Assembly (NCBI GenBank): GCA_018004935.1 | Contig: JAGNBF010000076.1 | Coordinates: 1-37,405 of the forward strand | Direction of reading: 5' to 3' | Source: Chloroflexota bacterium | GTDB lineage: Bacteria; Chloroflexota; Anaerolineae; Promineifilales; Promineifilaceae | Length of the DNA: 37,405 nt | Shown: positions 3-35,990 of the stretch, piece after piece | Layout of the letters: the number at the start of each line of letters is the position of its first letter | How positions within the stretch are numbered: the stretch's first letter is position 1 | Program-made: the position numbers and the translations under genes | The notes under the pieces: model-generated | Database searches by the model: none | What the model was told of the DNA's origin: nothing | Seen by the model: the letters and a program-made list of their open reading frames with translations, nothing else

Positions 3-1151
3 GACAATGTGAAAGTGTTGTCGAACCTGGCTTTGCTGACCGGGCAGATTGGCCGACCGGGCACGGGTCTGAATCCCCTGCGGGGGCAGAACAATGTGCA
101 GGGGGCGTGTGATGTGGGTGGCCTGCCTAATGTATTCCCCGGCTACCAACCGGTGACGAGTGAAGAGGTGCGGCGCAAGTTCGCGGCCGCGTGGCACATC
201 CCTTACGAGCAACTCAGCCCCACCCCTGGCCTGACCATCACCGAAATCATGCACGGTATCGGGGCGGGGCATATCAAAGCGGTGTTTATCATGGGCGAAA
301 ACCCCATGCTCTCCGACCCCAACCTGAGCCATGTCGAAGAAGCATTGCGCGAGGTGGAGTTCCTCGTCGTGCAGGACATCTTCGCCCACGAGACGGCCCA
401 ATTTGCTCATGTGATTTTGCCAGCGGTCAGTTTTGCCGAGAAAACGGGCACCTTTACCAGCACCGAGCGGCGCGTACAGATGATTCGTCCGGCGTTACCG
501 GCTCCCGGTGAGGCTCGCCCCGACTGGCAAATTACCCTGGAACTGGCGCAGAGGCTGGGGGCTGACTGGCAATATGACGGCCCGGCGGACATCTTTACGG
601 AGATGGCCGCGGTGACGCCACAATATGCCGGGATGAGCCATGCCCGGCTAGAAAAGGACGGTCTGCAATGGCCGTGCCCCACCCCGGAGCATCCCGGTAC
701 GCCGATTTTGCATACGAAGGTGTTTACACGGGGCAAGGGGTTGTTCTGCGCCATTCCGTACCGGGAACCGGCGGAACTGCCGGATGAGCAATACCCGCTC
801 ATTCTTTCGACGGGGCGGATTTTGTTCCACTGGCATGGGGGCACGATGTCGCGCCGTTCGCCAGGGTTGGATGCGATTGCGCCGTGTGCGGAGGTGGAGA
901 TTCACCCGGCTGACGCGGCCGCGGCCCACATCCGCACCGGTGATTTCGTAAAAGTTAATTCACGGCGGGGGGAACTGGTTGCGGCCGCGAAGCTGACCCG
1001 TCGCTCCCCCGTCGGAACCATCTTCATGACCTTCCACTACGCCGAAGCCGCCACCAACCTGCTCACCATTGACGCCGTAGACCCTACGGCCAAGATACCG
1101 GAGTACAAGGTGTGTGCGGTGAGAGTGGAGAAAGTGAACAGTGAACAGTGA
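3..1151 (+). CDS. formate dehydrogenase alpha subunit, C-terminal part (5' end outside window)
   Basis: Molybdopterin-dependent oxidoreductase of the formate dehydrogenase H/alpha type. It would oxidise formate to CO2, or reduce CO2, passing electrons to partner subunits that are not in the window. The reading frame is open to the left edge (codons for Asp-Asn precede the first possible start, a GTG at 9), so this is the C-terminal part, about 382 codons. The segment LLTGQIGRPGTG followed by NPLRGQNNVQGACDVG is the classic FDH alpha signature. MGENPMLSDPN and the region to about residue 210 finish the molybdopterin domain. A molydopterin-binding beta-barrel follows at about 255-375 (LSTGRILFHWHGGTMSRRS, then DFVKVNSRRGE). 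The 4Fe-4S cluster and the Cys/Sec active site would lie upstream. The last codons (VNSEQ) are made of the heptamer repeat that starts here. The next gene encodes an FNT channel, which fits formate metabolism. Confidence 0.92.
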   Translation, partial: DNVKVLSNLALLTGQIGRPGTGLNPLRGQNNVQGACDVGGLPNVFPGYQPVTSEEVRRKFAAAWHIPYEQLSPTPGLTITEIMHGIGAGHIKAVFIMGENPMLSDPNLSHVEEALREVEFLVVQDIFAHETAQFAHVILPAVSFAEKTGTFTSTERRVQMIRPALPAPGEARPDWQITLELAQRLGADWQYDGPADIFTEMAAVTPQYAGMSHARLEKDGLQWPCPTPEHPGTPILHTKVFTRGKGLFCAIPYREPAELPDEQYPLILSTGRILFHWHGGTMSRRSPGLDAIAPCAEVEIHPADAAAAHIRTGDFVKVNSRRGELVAAAKLTRRSPVGTIFMTFHYAEAATNLLTIDAVDPTAKIPEYKVCAVRVEKVNSEQ

Positions 1152-4350: not shown

Positions 4351-5114
4351 GAAGCTTTCGCTATGCCTGTATTATTTTGGAAAAATTCAATAGGGCGGGT
4401 ATAAGGCCAGCCCATCCTTCAAATCATTATCTTGAGATCCATAGTTTTAACGGGTACGGTTAGAGGGTCCAGATGCGAACTATGTTATGTAGGGTAAGGC
4501 GAGGCCGAGGGAACCCTGGGTGTGCAATGGCCCTGGTGCGGGCTAGTTTGAGTGAAATGGGAGCAAATCATAGACTCCCAACGAAGGAATTTTGACCGTA
4601 TTGGATCTTGATTGTAATTTAATTTTCGGATGATAGCAAAATAAAGCGTATCACTTCGCCCGCTCACCACCTTAAATACAATATTAATGAAATATGAAAA
4701 TGAGCGGTGTTGGTGAAAAGGAGAGAGGGGCTATCGCGGCCGCGTTCCCATTCCGTAACCATTCAACTGCAAGTCTACTGAAAAAAGGAACCGCCAAGAC
4801 GCTGAAAACGCTAATAACAGAAGACGTCCAGAGAAAATGTTTGCGCCCTTTGCCTCTTAACGGTGGGAAATCTTCTTTTGGTGAATACCTGCTTTGCCCC
4901 CAACCCCTAATCCCACGAGATACTCCCCTTCGTGATCTTCGTCACCGGTCAACGTGTGATCTGTCACTGTCTGCTCAGACCACCCCACCCTACAATGTAA
5001 CGCAATGTGGTTGGGCCAACCTGCGCTAACGCGTGGGTACTCTCGAAACCTGCAATTCACATAACACACAACACGCCATACGCACTACGTATCACGTTTT
5101 GAGGAGAACGTTCC
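4351..5114. other. long gap before nifJ, no supported gene
   Basis: This 0.76-kb gap holds no reading frame with recognisable protein character. A 111-codon frame at 4694-5029 has no ribosome binding site and atypical composition. One GCGGCCGC site lies at 4736-4743. The last 70 bases (from about 5044) are rich in ACAC/CACG words and end in GAGGAGAACG, a good ribosome binding site for nifJ. The nifJ promoter should lie here, but no -35/-10 pair stands out. Confidence 0.5.
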
Positions 5115-10992: not shown

Positions 10993-11119
10993 CGTGGATA
11001 CCTCAGCATTGACACCAACGGCCACAGAAGTGGTCAAAAAAAATGAGTCTAGGGTTGTTTCTTAAGTCAAGAGCCTGTGCATTTTAACACAATCCACAGA
11101 GGGGTGGCAAAATGAGGCA

Positions 11120-11454
11120 AGAGTTGGCAGCAATTCTCAATTTGGCCTGGGCCTCAACAAAGGCAGAGGCCGCCCGGCCGTAAAACGGGCCAGGCTATAT
11201 TTACGAAGGCTGTTGGCCTGGGGTCTTAGCCCGTTTGTCATTTAAAGAATTAATCAGGTAATGGAATCCCCCCCACCCCTAACCCGGCCCCCAGGGGCGG
11301 GGAACTTTTCTAGGGGCATTCCCCCCTTCCCTCGGGAATCGGCAGGGGGATGGGGTCAATGAAGGCGTTACCCGATTAAAAATTTAATGAACAATGACCG
11401 CCGGGCGGATTAAGGAAATGCTTACCCTTCAAATTGAGAATTGCTGAGAGTTGG
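11120..11454. mobile_element. family A MITE-like element with 8-bp target duplication, carrying a nested repeat
   Basis: Terminal inverted repeats CAGCAATTCTCAATTT (11128-11143) and AAATTGAGAATTGCTG (11431-11446) bound a 319-bp element without coding capacity. AGAGTTGG stands directly outside both ends (11120-11127 and 11447-11454), so it is an 8-bp target-site duplication. Inside, 11237-11392 is a second element (family B) with imperfect inverted ends (ATTAATCAGGTAATGG against the complement of CGTTACCCGATTAAAAATTT) and a family C core. It lies in the gap between the divergent genes at 10992 and 11697. Confidence 0.85.
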
Positions 11455-20659: not shown

Positions 20660-20794
20660 GGATTTTCGGCGTGGTTCAAAAGTCGGCAAACGGTGCTTAA
20701 CACCTTGTAGGGCGATTTGGTAAATCGCCCACGAGACGATTTACCAAATCGTCCTACAAATTTGTAAAGTTGACCTGAACCATGCCGGATTTTC
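20660..20794. mobile_element. family F 119-bp MITE with 8-bp target duplication (copy 1)
   Basis: A 119-bp element (20668-20786) starts with GGCGTGGTTCA and ends with TGAACCATGCC. It is flanked by a perfect 8-bp direct repeat, GGATTTTC (20660-20667 and 20787-20794). Its centre is a long palindrome: GTAGGGCGATTTGGTAAATC on the left, with the complementary right arm in which GACGATTTACC mirrors it. There is no coding capacity. The second copy at 30117-30235 has the same length. Confidence 0.9.
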
Positions 20795-22403: not shown

Positions 22404-22427
22404 AGTTGTGACACCTGAATAGTTATA

Positions 22428-22500
22428 GACCTTAAGATAATGATTTTGAGTAGGGGCTGGCCTTGTGCCTGCCCTGCATTTGAGTAGGGGACCTTACCGT
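22428..22500. repeat. family E repeat (GGGGCTGGCCTTGTGCCTGCCC), copy 1
   Basis: CTTAAGATAATGATTTTGAG followed by TAGGGGCTGGCCTTGTGCCT and GCCC. The same words stand at 25193 and 30012. The GGC/GCC palindromic core can form a hairpin. Confidence 0.65.
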
Positions 22501-29976: not shown

Positions 29977-30005
29977 AGTATAAACCCGGTTAATAGTTTT
30001 GTCAA
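29977..30005 (-). promoter_or_regulatory. sigma70-type promoter of padR
   Basis: On the minus strand TTGACA (30005-30000) and TATACT (29982-29977) are separated by exactly 17 bases. The -35 is perfect and the -10 has 5 of 6 matches. The expected transcript start is near 29970, about 25 bases before the ATG, so the short leader has little room for more than the binding site. Confidence 0.8.
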
Positions 30006-30011
30006 TCAGGT

Positions 30012-30098
30012 CGTATAGACTTTAAGATGATGATTTTGGGTAGGGGCTGGCCTTGTGCCTGCCCTACCAAAAGAGGGCAACCACGAGGGTTGCCCATA
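30012..30098. repeat. family E repeat, copy 3
   Basis: CTTTAAGATGATGATTTTGG, then TAGGGGCTGGCCTTGTGCCT and GCCCTACC, then the inner hairpin GGGCAACC/GGTTGCCC. It is homologous over its whole length to the copies at 22428 and 25188. Confidence 0.7.
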
Positions 30099-30108
30099 CA
30101 GCCAAAAT

Positions 30109-30243
30109 GTTTTTCTGGCATGGTTCAAAAGTTGACAAACGGTGCTTAACATTTTGTAGGGCGATTTTGTAAATCGCCCAGTGGACGATTTGCAAAATCG
30201 TCCTACATATTTGTAAAGCTGGCCTAAACCATGCCGTTTTTCT
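30109..30243. mobile_element. family F 119-bp MITE with 8-bp target duplication (copy 2)
   Basis: The element 30117-30235 begins GGCATGGTTCA and ends TAAACCATGCC. Perfect 8-bp direct repeats GTTTTTCT flank it (30109-30116 and 30236-30243). The length equals copy 1 (119 bp). In the central palindrome the pair GGTAAATC/GATTTACC of copy 1 is replaced by TGTAAATC/GATTTGCA, so the arms have changed together. Confidence 0.9.
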
Positions 30244-30255
30244 TAAAAGCTATAG

Positions 30256-30295
30256 AAACGAAAAGAAGGCAGGTTCTGACCCAAAACCTGCCTTC
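30256..30295 (-). terminator. probable original asd terminator
   Basis: GAAGGCAGGTT (30265-30275) and AACCTGCCTTC (30285-30295) form a perfect 11-bp stem with a 9-base loop. On the minus strand TTTTCGTTTC follows. It lies about 245 bases beyond the asd stop, because a family A element was inserted between stop and terminator. Without the insertion the distance would be about 25 bases. Confidence 0.75.
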
Positions 30296-30317
30296 TCGCC
30301 TTTTCGCCGCGCCAAGT

Positions 30318-30545
30318 ATATTAACCCAGCAATTCTCAATTTAGCCAACGGTCAAACCCATTGGACTCCAGGCGCACGCTCGAAAAATGACCCAAACCGT
30401 AGAACAGCCTTTCAGGTTGTTCGCCCTCTCGTGAAAACAAACTGTATAGAGAGTGCACAGCCTGGAAAGGCTGTGCTACCCCAGTTGACCGCCGGGCGGA
30501 TTACGGAACGTTTATCGTTCAAATTGAGAATTGCTGATATTAACC
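30318..30545. mobile_element. family A MITE-like element inserted at the asd stop codon, 9-bp target duplication
   Basis: CAGCAATTCTCAATTT (30327-30342) and AAATTGAGAATTGCTG (30521-30536) bound a 210-bp element. ATATTAACC stands on both sides (30318-30326 and 30537-30545), a perfect 9-bp target-site duplication. The right duplicate contains the asd stop codon (30540-30542), so the coding sequence stayed intact. The interior is homologous to the right half of the copies at 2337 and 35790. Confidence 0.92.
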
Positions 30546-31595
30546 CAGATACCCCTGCACGTAGAGCAGTTCCCCGTTGAGCACCGCCCCACTGGCCGCG
30601 CCGCGTAGGGTGTTATGGGTCAGGGCCAGGTAACGTAAATCTAGCACCTCACATTCACGCACCTTGCCTACCGTCCAGGCCAGCCCATCACCAGTATCCC
30701 GATCCAGGCGCGGCTGGGGACGATCCGGTTCGTTCCGATAAACCAGCAGGCGTTGTGGTGACGAAGGCAACTCCTGGCAGATGGCCGGGGGACACCACGT
30801 TTTCAACGTCGCGATGGCTTCATCTACCGAAGGCTTATGGCGCATGCCCACCGAAACACTGGCGAGGTGGCCGTCGAACACGGGAACCCGGTTGGCCTGG
30901 GCACTGATTTTCAGATTCGCCAGTTCCATTTGCCCGGCTATCACCTGGCCCAACAGTTTTTTCGGTTCATTTTCCAGTTTGTAATCCTCACCGCCGATGT
31001 AGGGAACCACATTATCCAGAATGTCCATTGAGGAGACACCGGGATAACCAGCCCCGGAGATGGCCTGCATCGTCACCATGATGATGGATGTGAGGTCGAA
31101 AGCGTCGTGCCAGATTTTCATGGGCAGGATGGCACTGGTGGTGGAACAGTTGGGGCTGGCGACGATAAAACCAGACCAGCCGTTGTTGGCCTTTTGGGTG
31201 GCGATCAGGTTGGTGTGATCAGGGTTGAGTTCAGGGATGAGCAGGGGGACATCGGGGGCCAGACGGTAGACAGAGGTGTTGGTGATGACGGCATAACCCG
31301 CGGCCGCGAACTGGGGTTCATATTCCTTCGCTTCCGTTGTGGGCAGGGCCGAGAACACCACCGGCACATCCAGGTTAGGGGCCGTCGGTTGCACAACCAG
31401 ATCCCGCACCGAAGCCGGGGCATCTCCTAGCAACTTCCAATTCACTCCCTCCCCATACGCCCGTCCCACCGTGCGGTCTGACCCGGTGACGACTTTCACT
31501 TCAAACCAGGGATGGTTCTCCAATAACTGCACAAACCGTTGCCCAACTGTGCCCGTCGCGCCCAAAACAGCGACTGGAATACGTTTTTGGTTCAT
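30540..31595 (-). CDS. asd: aspartate-semialdehyde dehydrogenase (archaeal/fungal type)
   Basis: Converts aspartyl-4-phosphate to aspartate semialdehyde with NADPH, the branch point to lysine, threonine and methionine. 351 aa. N-terminal Rossmann motif GATGTVG (12-18), FSALPTTEAKEYE, the catalytic Cys C150 in SPNCSTTS, QAISGAGYPGVSSMDI, the catalytic His H243 in VFDGHLASVSVG, and the C-terminal ALTHNTLRGAASGAVLN. The motif forms place it in the shorter archaeal/yeast-like class rather than the E. coli class. A strong AAAGGAG precedes the ATG. A T-box leader upstream (31677-31985) implies control by an uncharged tRNA. The 3' end carries a family A insertion at the stop codon. Confidence 0.96.
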   Translation of the reverse strand: MNQKRIPVAVLGATGTVGQRFVQLLENHPWFEVKVVTGSDRTVGRAYGEGVNWKLLGDAPASVRDLVVQPTAPNLDVPVVFSALPTTEAKEYEPQFAAAGYAVITNTSVYRLAPDVPLLIPELNPDHTNLIATQKANNGWSGFIVASPNCSTTSAILPMKIWHDAFDLTSIIMVTMQAISGAGYPGVSSMDILDNVVPYIGGEDYKLENEPKKLLGQVIAGQMELANLKISAQANRVPVFDGHLASVSVGMRHKPSVDEAIATLKTWCPPAICQELPSSPQRLLVYRNEPDRPQPRLDRDTGDGLAWTVGKVRECEVLDLRYLALTHNTLRGAASGAVLNGELLYVQGYLG

Positions 31596-31676: not shown

Positions 31677-31985
31677 AAAAAAACGCCACCACCCACATTG
31701 GGGCGATGGCGTCGCGGTTCCACCCAAAATTCAGTAAACAGTGGACAGTAGGCAGTAAACAGTAAAAATCACTGAAGTCTGCTAACTGGCTGTACTCTTA
31801 GTGCGGCTGATAACGGAGCAACCCGGATTTTCTTACTGGTGTGTCAACTGTTAATGGGTCACGGTTGACTGTTCACTTTCTGAAAATCACTCCTGGGGGG
31901 TTTTCATCCTGTCCTGATGGTGCGGGCTTCCAGCCTATTGGCCCATCACTCTCTGGCACAGGGATAAGGATTACTCGTCCCAGTC
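31677..31985 (-). promoter_or_regulatory. T-box riboswitch leader of asd
   Basis: On the minus strand the conserved T-box GGGTGGAACCGCG is at 31725-31713. It is followed at once by a terminator stem (31712-31701 with 31694-31683, two G-U pairs) and seven T (31683-31677). Upstream, a Stem I-like part (about 31978-31880) shows GACGAGTA, CCAGAGAGTGATGGGC, GGCTGGAAGCCC and the closing AGGATGAAAACC, then CAGGAGTG. The specifier lies in GAAAACC: AAC (Asn), ACC (Thr) or AAA (Lys) are possible by register. Thr or Lys would suit asd best. CAGT-type heptamer repeats sit in the linker at 31737-31770. Confidence 0.9.
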
Positions 31986-32059
31986 AACGTGTTACATGTA
32001 GCGAAGTGGAGAAATTATGAAGGAAAGGTTGGGGAGTGTCAAGTCGAGGTACCACAAAA

Positions 32060-32130
32060 CAGCAATTCTCAATTTGGTCTGGGCCTCAACAAAGGCAGAG
32101 ACCGCCCGGCCGTAAAACGGGCCGGGCGAC
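32060..32130. repeat. truncated family A element (left end only)
   Basis: CAGCAATTCTCAATTT at 32060-32075 is followed by about 50 bases closely matching the left part of the element at 11128 (CTGGGCCTCAACAAAGGCAG, then CCGCCCGGCCGTAAAACGGG). The right end is missing. It stops at the 3' end of the LysM/M23 gene. The small CGCCCGGCCGTAAAACGGGC hairpin may serve as its transcript end. Confidence 0.75.
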
Positions 32131-32132
32131 CT

Positions 32133-33560
32133 TTAGGGGAACAGCTCTTCTACCCATTGCTGACCACTGACCGGTACGTTGTGCACCCGCACATCCCAAT
32201 GCAGGTGGGCACCCGTCGAAAGCCCTGTTGTGCCGACTTTGCCAATTAACTGCCCCGCCGTCACTGTTTGTCCCAATGTAACCAATGTTTCAGTCAGGTG
32301 AAAATAGCCACTTGTGAGGCCCAGGCCATGATCTAAAATGATGACATTACCACGTAAGGGGGTGGGTTCGTTAAAAATGACGGTGCCCCCCGCCGGTGCC
32401 AGAATGGGTGTGCCAGTGGCGGCAAAAAAGTCTACTCCTGTGTGTAGAATTAAGGGACTGCCATTGTAGGTGCGGAATTCACCAAAATTTGAGGTAACGA
32501 GGGTGTTGGTGAGGGGGTATTGAAATAACCCTTCCCATAACGGGGTGGGCGTGAACTGGCTGAAGTAGGTGTCTAGCAGGGCATCATCCTGGATACGCAC
32601 ATTGGGGTCTAGTAAGGGAGTCAATTCCGCCGCCAGGGTGAGGTCCAGGCGGCCAAATGTGTTGGCTACCACGAGTAAGGGTTGATGGAAGGGTCGCCAG
32701 GGGCGTTGTCCGGAACCGGTAATCTCCAAAGGTTGGGGGCCAGAGGGAGCATCTACGGGTAGACCCACGAGTGCCAGGTAGCCGTTTTCATAAGGGGAAA
32801 AATGGAGTGATTGCCCGGCGAAAGTGCCATCTGGAGTACCTTCTTGCAAGTTTTCGACGTAAATGGCCAGAGATTGTCCCTGGACGGGGCGGGCGGGATG
32901 GACATTCACGGTTATCCATTCGTCTGGCAAATCCTGGTAAGGTGTCTCACCGGGGATGTAGAGTCGCTGTCCAGGAAATAGAACGGTGGGGTAGGGTAGA
33001 TTGTTCGCGGCCGCAAGCCCGTTCGGCTCCAGGTTATAGCGTAGCGCCAATAGGGTCAGCGTTTCCCCGGCCGCCACCAGATGAAAACGCCCTGTTACGG
33101 GGCGCGGTTCGGCCGAGCCGGTGCGGCTTACCAGGACCAATTGTTGTCCCCCATAAAGCAGTTGGGGGTTGAGCAGGCCGTTTTGTTGGCCGATAGCCTC
33201 GGGGGTGGTATTGAACGCGGCCGCGATACTCGCCAACGTATCACCAATTTGTACCATATATACGGCCGTTGCAACATCCCCTATCTGCCCCGGAATGAGC
33301 AATTCTTGCCCTTCAAACAAAAACTCTGGGTTTGTCAGGCTGTTCACCAGGATCAGATCATCCACCGTAAGGTTATACAACGTGGCGATGCTAGATAACG
33401 TTTCACCGGCCTGCACGACATGCACTTTGGGGATGGGAATCGTATCGGTGGGGGTGGGCGTAGGGGTGGCCTCTTCGCCATCTTGCGCTTGAACGAACAC
33501 CGGCAAAAACAGAAACAACAGAAGAAAGAAGAGAAGTGGTAAACGACGCATAACAGACAT
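32133..33560 (-). CDS. secreted LysM / M23-family peptidoglycan endopeptidase
   Basis: 475 aa. Signal peptide (about 5-25, ending VQAQDG), a short Thr/Pro linker, then three LysM domains for peptidoglycan binding: about 47-91 (HVVQAGETLSSIATLYNLTV), 97-140 (YMVQIGDTLASIAAAFNTTP) and 161-205 (HLVAAGETLTLLALRYNLEP). A middle domain of about 140 residues and the C-terminal M23 (LytM) metallopeptidase domain follow, with HTGVDFFAATGTPILAPAGG (zinc His and Asp) and TGLSTGAHLHWDVR (HxH) near 455. All zinc ligands are present, so it is likely active. The start may be Met1 or Met4. It is the last gene of the sigma factor unit, which suggests envelope control. Confidence 0.94.
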   Translation of the reverse strand: MSVMRRLPLLFFLLLFLFLPVFVQAQDGEEATPTPTPTDTIPIPKVHVVQAGETLSSIATLYNLTVDDLILVNSLTNPEFLFEGQELLIPGQIGDVATAVYMVQIGDTLASIAAAFNTTPEAIGQQNGLLNPQLLYGGQQLVLVSRTGSAEPRPVTGRFHLVAAGETLTLLALRYNLEPNGLAAANNLPYPTVLFPGQRLYIPGETPYQDLPDEWITVNVHPARPVQGQSLAIYVENLQEGTPDGTFAGQSLHFSPYENGYLALVGLPVDAPSGPQPLEITGSGQRPWRPFHQPLLVVANTFGRLDLTLAAELTPLLDPNVRIQDDALLDTYFSQFTPTPLWEGLFQYPLTNTLVTSNFGEFRTYNGSPLILHTGVDFFAATGTPILAPAGGTVIFNEPTPLRGNVIILDHGLGLTSGYFHLTETLVTLGQTVTAGQLIGKVGTTGLSTGAHLHWDVRVHNVPVSGQQWVEELFP

Positions 33561-35562: not shown

Positions 35563-35990
35563 TAGTTCAACCAGTAGTTCTCAATTTAGCCAACGGTTTT
35601 TGTTCATTAAATTTTTAATCGGGTAACGCATTCATTGACCCCATCCCCCCATCCCCCCTTCCCTCGGGCAGGGGGGATGGGGGGATGGGGCATTTTTCGG
35701 GGCATTCGCCCCGAAAAATGCCCCTTAGAAAAGCTCCCCGCCCCTGGGGGTGGGGGGATTCCATTACCTGATTAATTTTTTAAACGACAATAACCGTTGG
35801 ACTCCAAGAGCACGCTCGAAAAATGGCCCAACCCGTAGAACGGCCTTTTAGGCTGTTCGCCCTACACGTCCTCGAGGGCTGAGCTTGCCGAAGCCCGGCA
35901 CCGCCTGGAAAGGCTGTGCTACACCCAGTTGACCGTCGGGCAGATCAACGGAATGTTTATCGTTCAAAATGAGAATTGCTGTAGTTCGGC
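35563..35990. mobile_element. family A MITE-like element with nested family B/C repeat, 9-bp target duplication (7/9)
   Basis: CAGTAGTTCTCAATTT (35572-35587) and AAAATGAGAATTGCTG (35966-35981) are the diverged ends of a 410-bp element. The flanks TAGTTCAAC and TAGTTCGGC are a 9-bp duplication with 7 of 9 identical. Inserted inside is a second element, about 35590-35800, with inverted ends CCAACGGTTTTTGTTCATT and the complement of the right end AATAACCGTTGG, and in its centre a perfect 17-bp hairpin (35687-35703 and 35708-35724, loop ATTC). The inner insertion interrupts the CCAACGG...TTGGACTCC segment that is continuous in the copy at 30327. Confidence 0.85.

Follow-up and report, generated by a model that had tools for sequence, protein, structure and literature searches.

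The yeast retrotransposons Ty1 and Ty3 insert at a set distance from the starts of genes transcribed by RNA polymerase III, with their integrase guided by Pol III factors, while elements of the ISAs1/IS4 type have ends beginning with CA and generate duplications of 8-10 bp. Prokaryotic MITEs, according to the parts of a published account that bear on them (PMC10969869), are shorter than 500 bp, possess terminal inverted repeats (TIRs) and a target-site duplication (TSD), show an intergenic bias and a structured transcript, and derive from insertion sequences (IS) by internal loss. Here, we describe a family of such elements, one copy of which lies exactly at the stop codon of asd in a 37,405-nucleotide stretch of Chloroflexota DNA (contig JAGNBF010000076.1 of assembly GCA_018004935.1), hereafter the window. 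Beyond the preliminary description of this locus, our analysis provides a parent IS and a promoter-linked target rule for the family.

The preliminary description, made from the sequence of the window, reported a short TIR-bounded MITE at asd, and the anatomy of the locus bears this out. The element is 210 bp long (30327-30536), non-coding, with no ORF of at least 80 aa inside, and is bounded by two perfect 16-bp TIRs, the left one (30327-30342, plus strand) matching CAGCAATTCTCAATTT exactly and the right one (AAATTGAGAATTGCTG, 30521-30536, minus strand) being its exact reverse complement, with no mismatch. The sequence ATATTAACC is duplicated on both sides with 9/9 identity, once on the terminator side (30318-30326) and once on the asd side (30537-30545), where it holds the TAA stop codon (30540-30542, minus strand), as originally noticed. 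The claim that asd was rebuilt intact is also correct. The gene (30540-31595, minus strand) encodes a 351-aa aspartate-semialdehyde dehydrogenase with both the Semialdhyde_dh and Semialdhyde_dhC Pfam domains and ends in ...GGG TAT CTG GGT TAA, and its coding sequence is complete because GGT TAA, including its own TAA, lies within the asd-side duplication. This copy represents a shorter subtype; beyond query position 124, other copies contain additional internal sequence. It is a MITE by the measures applied here, being short, non-coding, flanked by TIRs and a TSD, with dispersed copies and with autonomous IS carrying the same ends elsewhere, and its insertion at the asd stop is real and ordinary in itself. 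That the insertion is datable is, by contrast, unsupported: among the relatives searched, the closest asd is 71-72% identical at the protein level, and in a single scan of genome contigs for an empty site no asd relative exceeded about 53% identity.

The genome from which the window originates (8.0 Mb, 229 contigs) is rich in copies of the family. We found 77 DNA matches to the MITE, and the 16-mer TIR has 306 sites when one mismatch is allowed, 146 of which are exact, while a reversed-pattern control gave 0. A first set of 57 paired elements from this genome includes 23 with a perfect 9-bp TSD and 4 with a perfect 8-bp one; shifting the flanks by 20 leaves none of either. The TSDs are mildly AT-rich, with a GC content of 0.42. 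In two loci of the same genome (L358, C70:28554-29411; L359, C135:147366-147887) matches recur about 125 and about 98 bp apart in a minisatellite-like manner, which suggests that some copies carry internal tandem units. Since no matching transposase was found in this genome, the family looks orphaned there.

A parent IS is nevertheless present in relatives, where elements of 1.4-1.9 kb with the same ends and 8-9-bp duplications encode a distant DDE transposase. For example, a 1673-bp element from another member of the Anaerolineae (L258) has exact TIRs, an 8-bp TSD and a single 438-aa transposase. A second one from other Anaerolineae (L280) is 1446 bp long with a 9-bp TSD and 51% identity, and a third (L281), whose host shares its GTDB family with that of the window, is 1407 bp long with exact TIRs and 49% identity. 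A 471-bp deletion derivative (L268), which retains pieces of the transposase, directly links IS and MITE as an intermediate form. Transposase homologues with 46-48% identity occur on cyanobacterial plasmids (Anabaena, Nostoc and Calothrix), and a blind search for inverted repeats and TSDs around three of these cyanobacterial homologues recovered CAGCAATTCTCATTTT ends and perfect 9-bp TSDs. A phylum-wide search for further autonomous copies yielded only four genomes. In Methylomagnum, a related IS (L407:1086-1481) is apparently inserted in a gene resembling those for ECF sigma factors, with a TIR within the annotated ORF.

The Pfam matches of these transposases, to DDE_Tnp_1_assoc and DDE_Tnp_1, are weak and nearly all below the curated cut-offs: PF13808 scores at most 26 of 32.3 bits, and for PF01609 the Calothrix copy alone attains the cut-off (24.1 bits against 23). 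PF01609 matches, searched in six TIR-bearing genomes, were absent from the genome of the window and nowhere flanked by the TIR, and no NCBIfam match was found in the two transposases scanned. The parent reads as an ISAs1/IS4-like DDE family, a likeness for which we claim no membership. A quite different candidate parent was an IS110, since the one IS-sized unit in the genome of the window, a 1566-bp TIR-bounded stretch in contig C25, encloses an IS110 transposase. We rejected it, and give it practically no chance of being the parent, because alignment of the copies shows the IS110 to be a passenger that entered a MITE close to the left end, and because several independent IS copies enclose a different DDE transposase within their TIRs. 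At that nested locus (L061:1410-2975), where the IS110 sits beside the left TIR of a family MITE, a tandem second MITE shares the GAATTTAG duplication.

When the target sites were aligned, a CAA/TTG motif was apparent outside the duplication, in 31 of the 132 half-sites, where the background rate is 1.8%, and never on both sides. Orienting the sites by this motif brought out a second block, at the position of a -10 box. We scanned 78 duplication-verified sites, over a series of offsets, for TTGACA-(16..18)-TATAAT with a match of at least 8/12, the promoters discussed here being such sequence matches rather than mapped start sites. In 39/78 sites the match puts the first base of the -35 box precisely 9 nt beyond the duplication, while offsets away from the peak have about one site each; neighboring offsets drop at once, to about one site at offset 7 or 12. 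Mononucleotide shuffling yielded 1.2 sites on average and never more than 6, and 500 dinucleotide shuffles yielded 1.3 on average and never more than 5. Apart from a duplicate pair at the nested C25 locus, the flanks are mutually unrelated, which leaves 38/77 as independent sites. Held-out element ends repeat the pattern, with 51/229 at offset 18 from the TIR edge compared with a few at most other offsets, as do individual genomes (17/35 in that of the window, G000, 10/15 in G021 and 10/24 in G037). The promoter side faces a gene start rather than a gene end in a ratio of 30:7, whereas the opposite side does so in a ratio of 17:20 (P 0.003, genes called with a codon model).

The rule has exceptions, 24/78 verified sites, about a third, scoring below 7/12 at offset 9. 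In G037, four loci that lack the promoter at offset 9 (L098, L100, L373 and L382) show a -10-like box nearer the element, which may hint at a second register. As for autonomous IS, the cyanobacterial copies and the full-length Chloroflexota elements L258, L280 and L413 have no clear promoter at offset 9, and the register is seen only in single examples, namely a gammaproteobacterial relative (L300, TTGACA at offset 9, 10/12) and one weak side of L281. The evidence for a fixed register is thus strong for the MITEs and leaves it unproven for active IS. A limited search of the open-access literature turned up nothing on point about promoter-directed insertion of this kind in bacteria, and searching texts for the TIR sequence likewise gave no pertinent publication.

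Could the register arise without any targeting, by random insertion followed by selection for copies upstream of promoters? Insertions do avoid genes, with 12 inside ORFs against about 57 expected, as such selection would produce. We nonetheless consider this very improbable because selection cannot give a register precise to a single base, with 39 sites at offset 9, about one at 7 or 12, and the same peak in held-out ends. Our main reading, to which we assign a probability of roughly 85% as a whole, is that the asd copy is a MITE mobilized in trans, inserted by a staggered cut over the end of asd, and that its family chooses targets relative to sigma70 promoters. A DDE transposase of the IS family with CAGCAATTCTCA ends and 8-9-bp duplications would move the MITE in trans. 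A staggered cut across the last asd codons would then leave a 9-bp duplication, one copy of which keeps the stop codon joined to asd while the other lies beside the terminator. In general, the transposition complex would pick its target by a sigma70 promoter, the 9-bp target lying 8 bp upstream of the -35 box, at about -44 to -52. Insertion would thereby fall on the non-transcribed side of the promoter and mostly spare both coding sequence and core promoter.

What reads the promoter is a separate question. RNA polymerase holoenzyme, or DNA bent by it, may mark the target, as suggested by the conservation of the -35 box, the -10 box and their 17-bp spacing, from 9 to 37 nt from the duplication. 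From about -52 to -44 the alpha subunit of the polymerase makes its upstream contacts, and since the target spans this zone, recruitment by RNA polymerase is favored. Alternatively, the transposase itself could read TTGACA ... TATAAT in the promoter DNA, with no part for RNA polymerase, which would account equally well for a fixed register and a one-sided motif. The -10 box, however, is 32-37 nt from the duplication, such that recognition of both boxes and of their 17-bp spacing would need a very large contact, and Pfam detected no HTH or sigma-like domain in the transposases. Direct reading by the transposase is in our view a minority option, though a serious one. On balance we lean, with some reserve, toward an IS family that, together with its MITEs, targets a landmark of transcription initiation. 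Strand transfer would take place in a 9-bp window centered at about -48 of sigma70 promoters, with RNA polymerase bound at the promoter as the probable docking site, and this bacterial counterpart of Ty-type targeting would leave genes unharmed while placing elements ahead of promoters.

The window itself illustrates the rule. It contains four promoter matches of at least 10/12, two of which are exactly 18 nt from a family TIR edge. The first is a sigma70-like promoter (TTGACA-17-CATAAT, 32014-32042, minus strand, 11/12) upstream of the T-box leader of asd. A truncated family copy (32060-32135, right limit approximate) has a TSD-like sequence at 32051-32059, followed after 8 bp by the -35 box of this promoter. 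Transcription would be expected to start near 32007 and to lead straight into asd by way of the T-box leader (31696-31996, minus strand; RF00230, E 5.4e-18), which is complete over the Rfam model though its 80.7 bits do not reach the gathering score of 93. The second belongs to a copy at 11128-11446 with an 8-bp TSD (AGAGTTGG), where a TTGCCA-18-TAAAAT promoter (10/12, minus strand, -35 beginning at 11110) is 18 nt from the end. Two further copies are less clear: one with an imperfect TSD (35572-35981) has a weak promoter (8/12) at the same register offset, and a decayed one with a single TIR (2326-2463, left limit approximate; TIR 2448-2463) has TTGACG at the -35 offset and no -10 box.

Other repeats are found in the window. 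The gap between asd and padR holds three different repeats. Among the repeats of the window, one at 30014-30101 resembles 22424-22475 and 4392-4443 and lies about 8 bp from the padR promoter (-35 beginning at 30005), so it may represent a second family with a like habit. Another dispersed family has copies at 30112-30241 and 20663-20792 that are 85% identical. The window repeat families D2, D12, D14 and D15 consist of many copies of a GCGGCCGC-centered sequence, mostly in coding DNA, and the contig end (37264-37405) has a 70-bp perfect palindrome with a 2-nt loop, probably an assembly end artefact.

The gene asd is therefore flanked by two family copies, one before its promoter and one at its stop codon. 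The latter is an off-rule insertion with no recognizable promoter on either side, the best promoter score being 4/12 on each. Its overlap with a stop codon is not unique, since the TSD overlaps a stop codon in 6/66 non-genic sites against 1.56 expected (P 0.003), or in 5 against 1.53 (P 0.014) when the asd copy is left out, while start-codon overlap shows no enrichment. This excess is no more than suggestive, the test having been prompted by the asd finding and based on simple ORFs. Three of the six sites (L126, L315 and L364) have a promoter immediately past the duplication, in the same direction as the gene, and the position can be attributed to the promoter rule acting in tightly packed tandem genes, where the duplication saves the upstream stop. 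No such account is available for asd.

The preliminary description also proposed that the MITE displaced the asd terminator, from about 25 to about 245 bases from the stop. The displacement stands and its figures were essentially right. An intrinsic-terminator-like hairpin with a T-rich tail (30263-30297, minus strand, dG -27.4) now starts 232 nt past the stop and would start 13 nt past it in the computed empty site, a shift of about 219 bases made up of the 210-bp element and the 9-bp TSD. Among the loci parsed with our own scanner, asd terminators of relatives are near the stop in three (19-49 nt; L069, L070 and L071) and absent or further away in the others. A strong effect on termination is, on the other hand, doubtful. 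The MITE supplies a hairpin with a U-rich tail (TGTTTTCA) 53-100 nt after the asd stop (30440-30486, minus strand, coordinates derived from those distances), the element as a whole folds strongly as RNA, the old terminator is intact, and a near-consensus promoter match (30005-29977, 11/12) serves padR, the next gene, separately, which together make a large effect unlikely. Because the 9-bp duplication surrounds the element, asd remains intact with a 3' UTR about 219 nt longer, and we would expect a mixture of 3' ends.

The hairpin within the MITE is a possible replacement terminator, which raises the idea that this copy is kept by selection as a functional terminator or 3' stabilizer. In addition to the hairpin, the excess of stop overlaps would fit, as would the strong fold of the MITE as RNA, far better than that of shuffled sequences (z -5.5). 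This is a single copy, however, whose conservation is unsupported by any orthologous insertion, and the promoter rule explains the three other stop overlaps described above, which leaves selection for such a role unlikely.

How does the family compare with known systems? It shares with prokaryotic MITEs, as characterized in the relevant parts of PMC10969869, its size, TIRs, TSD, intergenic bias, structured transcript and IS origin; those parts mention an AT-rich intergenic preference and no fixed promoter register, whereas the present family has such a register and only mild AT-richness in its TSDs. Internal tandem units, suggested for the C70 and C135 copies, are found in the BrickBuilt MITE of Porphyromonas gingivalis (PMC4596501), which is unrelated in sequence and host. 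The IS copies of Anabaena, Nostoc and Calothrix have perfect 9-bp TSDs like the present family, and their transposases belong with Gloeothece verrucosa WP_013335080.1, labeled "ISNCY family transposase" after a catch-all, the unclassified group of ISfinder, among homologues of 46-48% identity with CAGCAATTCTCATTTT ends. Unlike the MITEs, they are autonomous and 1.87 kb long, with no clear promoter register in the few copies seen. ISAs1 and IS4-type elements are approached by weak matches of the parent transposases to both PF13808 and PF01609, but by the yardstick of a curated cut-off or an NCBIfam match their membership in ISAs1 is not established. The surprising part is the family-level promoter rule, from which we infer the mechanism. 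If the register reflects RNA polymerase recruitment, it would amount to a host-factor-guided safe-haven strategy in a simple bacterial DDE element, and insertions of the family, such as the copy before the asd T-box leader, would be natural promoter tags in uncultured Chloroflexota. Like Ty1 and Ty3, the family inserts at a set distance from the start of transcription; in contrast to them, it does so as a bacterial DDE element and at sigma70-like promoters.
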